In this document: positions 2,683 through 5,634 of the stretch, piece by piece
How positions within the stretch are numbered: position 1 is the stretch's first letter
Layout of the letters: each line of letters opens with the position of its first letter
Position numbers and translations under genes: made by a program
Notes under the pieces: generated by a model
What the model saw: the letters and a program-made list of their open reading frames with translations, nothing else
What the model was told of the DNA's origin: nothing
Database searches by the model: none
Assembly (NCBI GenBank): GCA_902772705.1
Contig: CACYBR010000151.1
Coordinates: 1-46,325 of the forward strand
Direction of reading: 5' to 3'
Origin: an uncultured Planctomycetota bacterium
Lineage (GTDB): Bacteria > Planctomycetota > Planctomycetia > Pirellulales > Thermoguttaceae
Length of the DNA: 46,325 nt

Positions 2683-4125
2683 ATGACTCAGCTTACCGAA
2701 GCGCGCACAGGCGTTATAACTCCTGAAATGGAGGTCGTCGCGAAAAAGGAGAGGCTTGATCCTGAAACGGTGCGAGCTGAGATCGCCGCTGGCAGGATGA
2801 TCATACCCGCGAACAGAGTTCATCTTTCTCGTGGGCTTTCTCCGATTGCGATCGGTCGTAAAGCTTCGACCAAGATCAACGCCAACCTTGGCGTTTCGTC
2901 TCTGGCCGGCGACGTGAATCGTGAGCTTGCAAAGATAGAGTGCGCGGTGAAATATGGCGCGGACACGGTCATGGATCTTTCGACTGGAACAGACGACCTT
3001 GATTCCCTTCGCGTTCGTATGATCAACGCCGTCTCTGTTCCTCTCGGCACGGTCCCGATATATCAGATCTGCGAAGAACTTGACGATATCCTCGACATGA
3101 CCAGGAACGACATTCTTGACGTTGTTGAACGTCAAGCGAAGCAGGGCGTTGATTACATGACGATACATTGCGCGCTCCTCCAGCGGCACATCCCGTTGGT
3201 TGATTCCCGTCTCATGGGGATTGTCAGTCGTGGAGGTTCGCTGACGGCAAAGTGGATGGTCGCTCACAACGCAGAGAATCCGTTCTACGAATGCTTTGAC
3301 GAATTGTGCGAGATCATGAAGGCGTACGATGTTTCATGGAGTCTTGGCGATGGATTGCGCCCTGGTTGTATCCATGACGCGAGCGACGCCGCCCAGTTTG
3401 GTGAACTTTCTGTCATGGGCGAACTGACGAAGCGTGCATGGGAGCATGGGACGCAGGTCATGATTGAAGGTCCTGGGCACGTGCCGCTCGATCAGGTTGC
3501 TGAGAATATGAAACGTCAACAGCAGGAATGCTTTGAGGCTCCCTTCTATGTGCTCGGTCCTGTCGTTTGCGATATTGCTCCTGGTTACGACCATATTACG
3601 AGCGCTATTGGCGCGGCAATCGCTGCGTTCAGCGGCGCTTCAATGTTGTGTTACGTCACTCCGAAGGAACATCTTGGCTTGCCTAATATCGAAGACGTTC
3701 GTAACGGATGCGTTGCGTATAAGATTGCCGCTCACGCAGCCGATATTGCGCTTCATCGACCAGGCGCTCAGGAACGCGACGACGAAATGGCGAGGGCTCG
3801 TTGGGCGTTCGATTGGGAGAAACAGTTTGCGCTTTCTCTTGATCCGGAACGAGCGCGACAGTACTACGAAGAAGCTCGTTCCAATCCTGACGATCAGGAG
3901 TTTGCTTCTAAAACGAAAGCTGAAGACGCCGCTAAGTACGGCGTTCAAGGGGATAGGCTCCCCAATGGGTGCCCTCGTGGCCTCCATCCGATCCTTAATC
4001 CCGACGGGACGATCGCAAATGAAAATTACTGTACAATGTGTGGACCAAAGTTTTGCGCTTTAAGAACGACCGCCGATCTGATTCGTTTGCGACGAGAGCG
4101 CGAAGAGAAGGAAAAGGAACGATAA
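2683..4125 (+). CDS. thiC: Phosphomethylpyrimidine synthase ThiC
   Basis: ThiC is the radical-SAM enzyme that converts aminoimidazole ribotide to HMP-phosphate, the pyrimidine half of thiamine. The 480 residues cover the whole family core, including [17 protein letters not shown] and IEGPGHVPL. The C-terminal cluster motif C-x2-C-x4-C is intact at Cys450, Cys453 and Cys458. The N-terminal extension of long proteobacterial forms is missing, as in many bacteria. The ATG at 2683 follows a purine-rich AAAGGCGG. The gene has its own predicted promoter and ends in a hairpin that overlaps the stop codon. No other thi gene is present in the window. Confidence 0.97.
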
Positions 4126-4139
4126 TATAGCGTTCCTTT
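4113..4139 (+). terminator. Hairpin overlapping the thiC stop codon
   Basis: A perfect 9-base stem (AAAGGAACG at 4113-4121 with its complement at 4131-4139) spans the end of thiC with a 9-base loop. It has no T-run, so it may be a weak terminator or an mRNA 3'-end stabiliser. Confidence 0.5.
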
Positions 4140-4271
4140 GAAACTTGACGAGCGCTCTTACGACAACCTGCTGGTTGGCGGAGCGTAGGTTCAAGTGGGG
4201 AAACGAACGCTCAGACGTCTTTCGTTTCGTGACAAACCAGTCAGCCTTACAGGGGGATTGGTTAATACGCC

Positions 4272-4300
4272 TTGTTTTTAGAAGTCTTATCGACTATAAT
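4272..4300 (+). promoter_or_regulatory. Predicted sigma70-type promoter of ribD
   Basis: TTGTTT (4272-4277) and a perfect TATAAT (4295-4300) are spaced by 17 bases. The expected start is 4306 or 4307, about 122 bases before the ribD ATG. That start coincides with the first base of the interleaved inverted repeats described next. Confidence 0.65.
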
Positions 4301-4305
4301 CAGCA

Positions 4306-4376
4306 GAGCCTTGCGCGCTTCTGGTTTATTATGATTGACTGAGATATAGACGCGAGCAAGGCTCGTTCCAGAAGCG
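4306..4376 (+). ncRNA. Candidate structured 5' leader of ribD: two interleaved inverted repeats
   Basis: Two perfect 9-base complementary pairs are interleaved: GAGCCTTGC (4306-4314) with GCAAGGCTC (4356-4364), and CGCTTCTGG (4316-4324) with CCAGAAGCG (4368-4376). The order A-B-A'-B' means they form either a pseudoknot or two mutually exclusive hairpins. A small hairpin TAGTTG-TTAT-CAACTA followed by CTTTTG lies downstream (about 4388-4408), before the ATG at 4429. The rest of the 303-base thiC-ribD gap contains a weaker nested fold near 4141-4198 and no open frame I trust. The conserved blocks of the FMN riboswitch are not visible. Confidence 0.5.
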
Positions 4377-4428
4377 TCTAAGCTCTTTAGTTGTTATCAA
4401 CTACTTTTGAAAGGTCGGTTACGAAAAA

Positions 4429-5634
4429 ATGAGTTCGAACCTCGATCAATTCTACATGCAACGCGCACTACGACTTGCCGTTCGCGGTCAAGGGCTTGTT
4501 GAGCCCAATCCGATGGTCGGTTGCGTGATCGTGCGAGAAGACTATACGTATAACGTTGAGTCCGGACTAGACAAGTCTGGCGCCTTCAGGGACGACTATG
4601 TTGTCGATCCCGAGGTCGAAGATAAAGCGGCGACGCTTATCGTTGGCGAAGGATGGCATCAGAAGTATGGCGAGCCTCACGCCGAAGTTAACGCGCTCAA
4701 AATGGCGGGCGACCTTGCCAAAGGCGCTACGATGTATGTGACGCTTGAGCCGTGCACGCATCAGGGTAAGACCCCTCCATGCGTCGACGCTGTAATCGCC
4801 GCCGGCATTAAGCGCGTTGTCGTGGCAATGTTGGATCCTTTTCCTGCGGTCAATGGTTCCGGAATCGAGGCGTTAAGAGCCGCTGGCGTCGAAGTTGAAG
4901 TTGGCGTCTGTGAAGAAGAAGCTCAGGAACTCAACTCCCCCTTCGTGACCCGACTGACGAAGAACCGCCCTTGGATTATCGGCAAATGGGCGATGACCCT
5001 TGACGGTAAGATCGCTACGCGCATCGGTTCAAGCTATTGGATTTCCTCAGACGAAGCTCGATTACGCGTTCATGAGTGGCGCGAGACCGTCGACGCCATT
5101 CTCATCGGAAGTCGTACAGCTATGGAAGACGATCCGCAACTGACAGTGCGTCTTCCTGAGGGACGTACGCCAAAGAGGATTCCTACGCGCATCGTCGTGG
5201 ACTCTGGCGGGACGTTATCCGTTTTTTCCGAGCTGGCCCTGACCGCTCGTGACGTTCCTCTTCTGCTCGTCTTTGGTCCGAATACCCCCAAGGGTAAGAA
5301 AGAGTTTTGGGAATCGAAGGGCGCTGAAGTTATGGTTATTGACGCGCCTACTCATGAGCAGAGACTTCTTCTGCTTCTCACGAATCTTGCCGAGCGCGGC
5401 ATGACGAACATTCTGGTTGAAGGCGGCGGCGAGCTGCTCGGGCACTTCTTCGATCTTGAACTGATTGACGAAGCTCGCGTTTTCGTCTCCCCGAAGATTA
5501 TTGGCGGTAGCGAAGCGGTCGTGGCGGTTGGCGGCGTTGGGCGTGAGCTTATGCGTAAGGCCGCGACGCTTCGTAATAAGAAGATTGAAGTCATTGGAAC
5601 AGACGTGCTCATTAGCGGTCGTATTAACTACTGA
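4429..5634 (+). CDS. ribD: Bifunctional riboflavin biosynthesis deaminase/reductase RibD
   Basis: RibD deaminates the pyrimidine made by GTP cyclohydrolase II and then reduces its ribosyl group, two early steps of riboflavin synthesis. The N-terminal cytidine-deaminase fold carries the zinc and proton-shuttle residues: His84 and Glu86 in HAEV, and Cys109 and Cys118 in the PCTHQGKTPPC block. The C-terminal reductase domain starts near 165 (WAMTLDGKIA) and contains LVEGGGELLG. An insert of about 30 acidic and polar residues (about 38-68) separates VGCVIVR from GEGWHQK, which are nearly adjacent in typical RibD. This makes it 401 residues rather than about 365. It has its own promoter and leader and ends at a strong bidirectional terminator. 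Confidence 0.96.
   Translation: MSSNLDQFYMQRALRLAVRGQGLVEPNPMVGCVIVREDYTYNVESGLDKSGAFRDDYVVDPEVEDKAATLIVGEGWHQKYGEPHAEVNALKMAGDLAKGATMYVTLEPCTHQGKTPPCVDAVIAAGIKRVVVAMLDPFPAVNGSGIEALRAAGVEVEVGVCEEEAQELNSPFVTRLTKNRPWIIGKWAMTLDGKIATRIGSSYWISSDEARLRVHEWRETVDAILIGSRTAMEDDPQLTVRLPEGRTPKRIPTRIVVDSGGTLSVFSELALTARDVPLLLVFGPNTPKGKKEFWESKGAEVMVIDAPTHEQRLLLLLTNLAERGMTNILVEGGGELLGHFFDLELIDEARVFVSPKIIGGSEAVVAVGGVGRELMRKAATLRNKKIEVIGTDVLISGRINY

Follow-up and report, generated by a model that had tools for sequence, protein, structure and literature searches.

Interleaved inverted repeats in the ribD leader of an uncultured planctomycete: probably an ordinary, structured and rapidly diverging 5′-UTR

The leader of the riboflavin gene ribD in an uncultured gut planctomycete contains two perfect inverted repeats that are interleaved, and its RNA is predicted to adopt two alternative folds of nearly equal energy. 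The leader is best viewed as an ordinary, structured and rapidly diverging ribD 5′-UTR, perhaps with a stabilising 5′-terminal hairpin; the probability of this reading is put at about 0.6. It is favoured because the promoter is conserved, pairing of the 5′ end is raised, the interleaving is absent from 11 related leaders, and both predicted folds are alike downstream. Against it stand the local improbability of interleaved 9-bp pairs and fold energies that are almost exactly balanced, as in a switch. As it stands the arrangement is of little significance, since hairpin-bearing leaders are common.

The thiC-ribD locus and its promoter

The window, i.e. the whole stretch of 46,325 nucleotides that was analysed, comes from a metagenome-assembled planctomycete (assembly of 3.44 Mb, 84% complete), whose nearest named relatives are Planctomycetaceae/Thermoguttaceae metagenome-assembled genomes (MAGs), many of them from rumen or gut. 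The features discussed here, with the arms as read from the sequence, are the following.

2683–4125, + strand: thiC, the gene upstream of ribD (NCBIfam NF009895/TIGR00190)
4272–4300, + strand: ribD promoter, with −35 TTGTTT at 4272–4277, a 17-nt spacer and −10 TATAAT at 4295–4300; CTTGTTTTT-N15-TATAAT recurs before ribD in the genus
4306–4314, + strand: arm A, GAGCCTTGC, where the RNA is predicted to start, 6 nt past the −10 box
4316–4324, + strand: arm B, CGCTTCTGG, interleaved with A:A′
4356–4364, + strand: arm A′, GCAAGGCTC, which pairs with A
4368–4376, + strand: arm B′, CCAGAAGCG, which pairs with B; B:B′ and A:A′ could form together only as a strained pseudoknot
4388–4403, + strand: third hairpin, TAGTTG-TTAT-CAACTA, before the ribosome-binding site and outside both alternative folds; two congeners (L004, L005) have hairpins of different sequence there
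4409–4414, + strand: Shine-Dalgarno-like GAAAGG, 14 nt 5′ of the ATG, conserved in congeners; predicted to be largely unpaired and identical in both folds
4429–5634, + strand: ribD (NCBIfam TIGR00326, E 1.2e-98)

The thiC-ribD intergenic region is 303 bases in length and contains the interleaved pairs. The ribD leader is single-copy in its own genome, which rules out a repeat or mobile element, and a search of the intergenic DNA in 60 genomes (its own and those of relatives) returned the self-match only. Directly 3′ of the thiC stop codon is an 83-nt nested hairpin (window 4129–4211; −36 kcal/mol for 4126–4215). L004 and L005 have a terminator-like hairpin with a T-run just after thiC, and the window counterpart has no T-run. 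The RibD protein of the window is 401 aa in length and matches TIGR00326 in two stretches, the best from residue 71; its deaminase part seems to hold an insertion of ~30 residues (window 4540–4640, residues about 38–66).

An earlier note on this DNA described the promoter as a consensus one. This is correct for the −10 box, as TATAAT at 4295–4300 is perfect, but TTGTTT at 4272–4277 matches TTGACA at only 3/6 positions, and a generic promoter scan missed the site for that reason. The exact form CTTGTTTTT-N15-TATAAT is found before ribD in nine of 18 genus genomes, this one included, and variants of it in three more. The 20 genomes of the genus contain 51 matches to the pattern versus one for a reversed control pattern. 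The 51 sites include window 4271–4300, and a few identical spacer sequences recur between species; the recurrence of the same spacers suggests that these promoter sites are probably at orthologous genes. Conservation thus argues that the ribD promoter is real, and the recurrences indicate that the pattern is a general promoter form of the genus, used at other genes and not specific to ribD. From the promoter position, the RNA would start near 4306–4308. Arm A, 6 nt past the −10 box, thus has its first base where the RNA is predicted to start, as the earlier note had it.

The interleaved pairs and their predicted folds

The two perfect 9-bp pairs are as first described, with the order A-B-A′-B′, a span of 71 nt and spacers of 1 and 3 nt. 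The A:A′ pairing can be drawn longer, with 4306–4322 opposite 4348–4364, i.e. 17 positions that are 88% complementary and give 15 pairs and two 1×1 mismatches. No other two perfect helices of 8 bp or more (and hence none of 9 bp) are interleaved within 80 nt anywhere in the 46 kb of the window. A first-order Markov copy of the window is expected to contain 0.017 interleaved cases at 9 bp and 0.27 at 8 bp. The claim that the arrangement is unlikely by chance therefore stands for one given leader (0.017 per shuffled window), but it does not extend to the genome, since roughly one 9+9 case would be expected by chance in 3.44 Mb. A further 212 kb of DNA, most of it from congeners, holds several interleaved cases of 8+8 or 8+9 and none of 9+9.

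Constrained folding with ViennaRNA gives −36.3 kcal/mol for the fold with A:A′ and −36.5 kcal/mol for that with B:B′, the latter being the minimum; the two are equal within error. The proposal of mutually exclusive hairpins is borne out to the extent that two near-isoenergetic alternative folds are predicted. The balance depends on where the RNA begins: mean pair probabilities for A:A′ and B:B′ are 0.55 and 0.43 with a start at 4306, 0.68 and 0.24 with 4307, and 0.30 and 0.66 with 4301. During transcription A:A′ would be fully formed when the RNA has grown to about 4366, and B:B′ would be able to compete only past about 4390. It should be pointed out that the leader is only modestly more stable than its shuffles (z of −2.2 for 4306–4428 and about −1.2 without the first G).

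Neither predicted fold affects the third hairpin at 4388–4403 or the Shine-Dalgarno sequence, and the start codon is likewise predicted to be unaffected by the choice of A or B. The further hairpin that the earlier note placed before ribD is present at 4388–4403, but it is not terminator-like, and no terminator-like site was found in the leader. A terminator or attenuator was rejected on this ground; the hairpins of L004 and L005 at this place precede AAAAAC and ACTTC, with no T run. Thus no expression platform that depends on the alternative folds, whether a terminator or Shine-Dalgarno sequestration, was found in the leader.

Comparison with related leaders and with known RNA families

RibD is encoded in 18 of the 20 genus genomes, this one included, and the others are 73–86% identical to the window RibD. 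The comparison of leaders accordingly covers congeners up to about 86% RibD identity, in MAG assemblies that may be incomplete. TATAAT is present 130–177 nt before ribD in 12 leaders, the window's among them. None of the 11 other leaders has comparable interleaved perfect 9-bp pairs; L013, L014 and L018 have a few interleaved pairs of 7 to 9 bp, in which similar, CGTTTTCG-like arms recur. Comparison of related upstream-ribD regions, which the earlier note had suggested as a check, thus shows that neither A/A′ nor B/B′ is conserved in the 11 other leaders of the genus, an absence that the note itself had named as evidence against its proposal. Alignment of the five nearest leaders (the window and L004–L007) gave no common long-range fold, and the third hairpin is shared weakly. 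The hairpin before the Shine-Dalgarno sequence has 6 bp, of different sequence, in the window and in L005 (shuffle p 0.11 and 0.03), and four to five bp in L004 (shuffle p 0.41); a hairpin shared by these three at this place is suggestive only. Conserved structure with covariation, as is typical of riboswitches and other cis-regulatory RNAs, was not found across these relatives.

The TATAAT promoter is absent before ribD in six of the 18 genomes (L008, L009, L012, L015, L016, L020), so ribD does not invariably carry such a leader RNA in the genus. In five of the six the thiC-ribD gap is −4 to 84 nt, and in L008 it is 181 nt. The order thiC-ribD is retained in those five (L009, L012, L015, L016, L020), and the short gaps, together with the missing promoter, suggest possible co-transcription of thiC and ribD in this part of the genus.

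What the leaders do appear to have in common is pairing of the 5′ end. Over the first 12 nt from +7 after TATAAT, the mean pairing probability is 0.75 in the 12 ribD leaders; shuffles give 0.52, and 23 control leaders with promoters of this type give 0.44. The difference between ribD and control leaders has a Mann-Whitney p of 0.0002, a value to be read with the relatedness of the sequences in mind, as the 12 ribD leaders represent few independent cases and the 23 controls include several orthologous groups. Mean fold z is about −1.5 for the ribD leaders and −0.5 for the control leaders. On these predictions, the ribD leaders of the genus share a paired 5′ end, but the sequence that pairs and its extent diverge rapidly. 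As in stabilising stem-loops, the A:A′ stem of the window leader would lie at, or a few nucleotides from, the RNA 5′ end, with the start site placed by the promoter.

The leaders of a sister clade (L010, L013, L014, L017, L018, L019) are alignable among themselves. They have a 10-bp hairpin near the RNA start, P1, which is paired in 98% of cells and shows one G-C to A-U change, and a third hairpin before the Shine-Dalgarno sequence that is paired in 82% of cells. Covariation support is slight, as sliding the structure along the alignment gives about as many double changes. The clade's covariance model, tried as a means of finding a regulon or the present leader, scores well only with its six members; the window leader is not among the next matches, which have E values of 0.002 and weaker and point to no convincing second gene. 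In L013, L014 and L018 the hairpin before ribD has TTTCGTT as its 5′ arm, and this arm could alternatively pair with AACGAAA, which overlaps the Shine-Dalgarno sequence. L017 has lost this complementarity but retains the hairpin with a changed sequence.

With respect to known families, the Rfam search that had also been suggested matched none in the leader, and the FMN riboswitch (RF00050) gave no hit at the gathering score in the window and none at E up to 10 in 4100–4500. At the cut-off, the riboswitch model matched seven of 14 control genomes, but none of the 20 genus genomes and none of the 118 that were sampled across the order. The earlier observation that the leader has no FMN riboswitch is therefore correct and extends to the sampled genomes of genus and order. 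Conservation of riboflavin synthesis without this riboswitch is already known from Bacteroidaceae, Cyanobacteria and Mycobacteriaceae (PMC3766115); a literature search on the FMN riboswitch together with Planctomycetes yielded nothing useful. ribD is present in the genus, while the 118 order genomes have no FMN riboswitch. Given that absence, riboflavin control could reasonably be sought in ribD leaders.

Interpretation and likeness to known leaders

The idea that prompted the analysis was that of a new regulatory RNA. In one form of this idea, the leader would be a species- or lineage-specific bistable switch in which A:A′ forms first and a ligand or condition then decides on rearrangement to B:B′, thereby controlling ribD. 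The near-equal energies and pair probabilities, the order in which the helices would close, the rarity of the arrangement in shuffles and the absence of the FMN riboswitch, the usual regulator, all speak for it. Yet the arrangement is kept in no other ribD leader of the genus, several congeners have no such leader at all, there is no terminator, the Shine-Dalgarno sequence and third hairpin are unchanged between folds, and the A/B balance depends on exactly where the RNA is taken to start (B from 0.24 to 0.66). A switch is thus highly improbable, and the general proposal of a regulatory RNA is not upheld, as the pairs are not maintained, the leader itself is dispensed with in part of the genus, and the folds have no visible output. 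About equally improbable is a newly evolved bistable ribD leader with A:A′ and B:B′ states selected by a metabolite or protein in a lineage without the FMN riboswitch. Should the leader prove to switch, it would represent a lineage-specific element of recent origin for the control of riboflavin synthesis.

It is also conceivable, though on balance unlikely, that B:B′ is coincidental in an unconstrained leader and A:A′ just one of many hairpins, all of them functionless. Shuffling predicts about one such case per 3.4-Mb genome, congener DNA has 8+8 and 8+9 cases at other places, the leader z is modest and there is no conservation. This reading does not account for 5′-end pairing that is raised across the ribD leaders as a set. 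A further alternative is that the hairpins are a site for an RNA-binding protein, in autoregulation or under another regulator, that reads shape over sequence. Two clades have ribD leaders with hairpins near the RNA start and differing sequences, and sister-clade P1 is almost always paired and includes the G-C to A-U change. However, the clades have no loop or stem sequence motif in common, and the sister-clade model recognises neither the leaders of the present clade nor, convincingly, a second gene; a protein site is therefore highly improbable.

The ordinary-leader reading can be put as follows. ribD would have a promoter of its own, of the housekeeping type and located behind thiC. The 5′-terminal A:A′ hairpin, which begins where the RNA is predicted to start, would be the first structure to fold as the leader is transcribed. 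If it has an effect at all, this is most likely protection of the mRNA 5′ end against degradation, by analogy with known leaders. B:B′ would be a lineage-specific alternative pairing with no visible output on transcription termination or translation. The transcription start, the folding in vivo and the stabilising role are all inferred.

Several known systems can be compared with this leader. Like the FMN riboswitch (RF00050), it stands in front of a riboflavin gene, but it differs in having no covariance-model match. It resembles bistable leaders and attenuators in that its two helices are mutually exclusive and close in predicted energy, and differs from them in having no terminator, Shine-Dalgarno sequestration or conservation. 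The ompA leader is among the 5′-UTR stem-loops that stabilise bacterial mRNAs. Stem-loops in the 5′-UTR also confer mRNA stability on recA and vacA (PMC7509114). The window leader is unlike these three in that its start is placed by the promoter only, an alternative fold competes with the hairpin, and stabilisation is proposed by analogy. The likeness to ompA, recA and vacA lies in a hairpin at or near the 5′ end that is followed by a largely unstructured ribosome-binding region, and in a hairpin sequence that is not conserved between genes.
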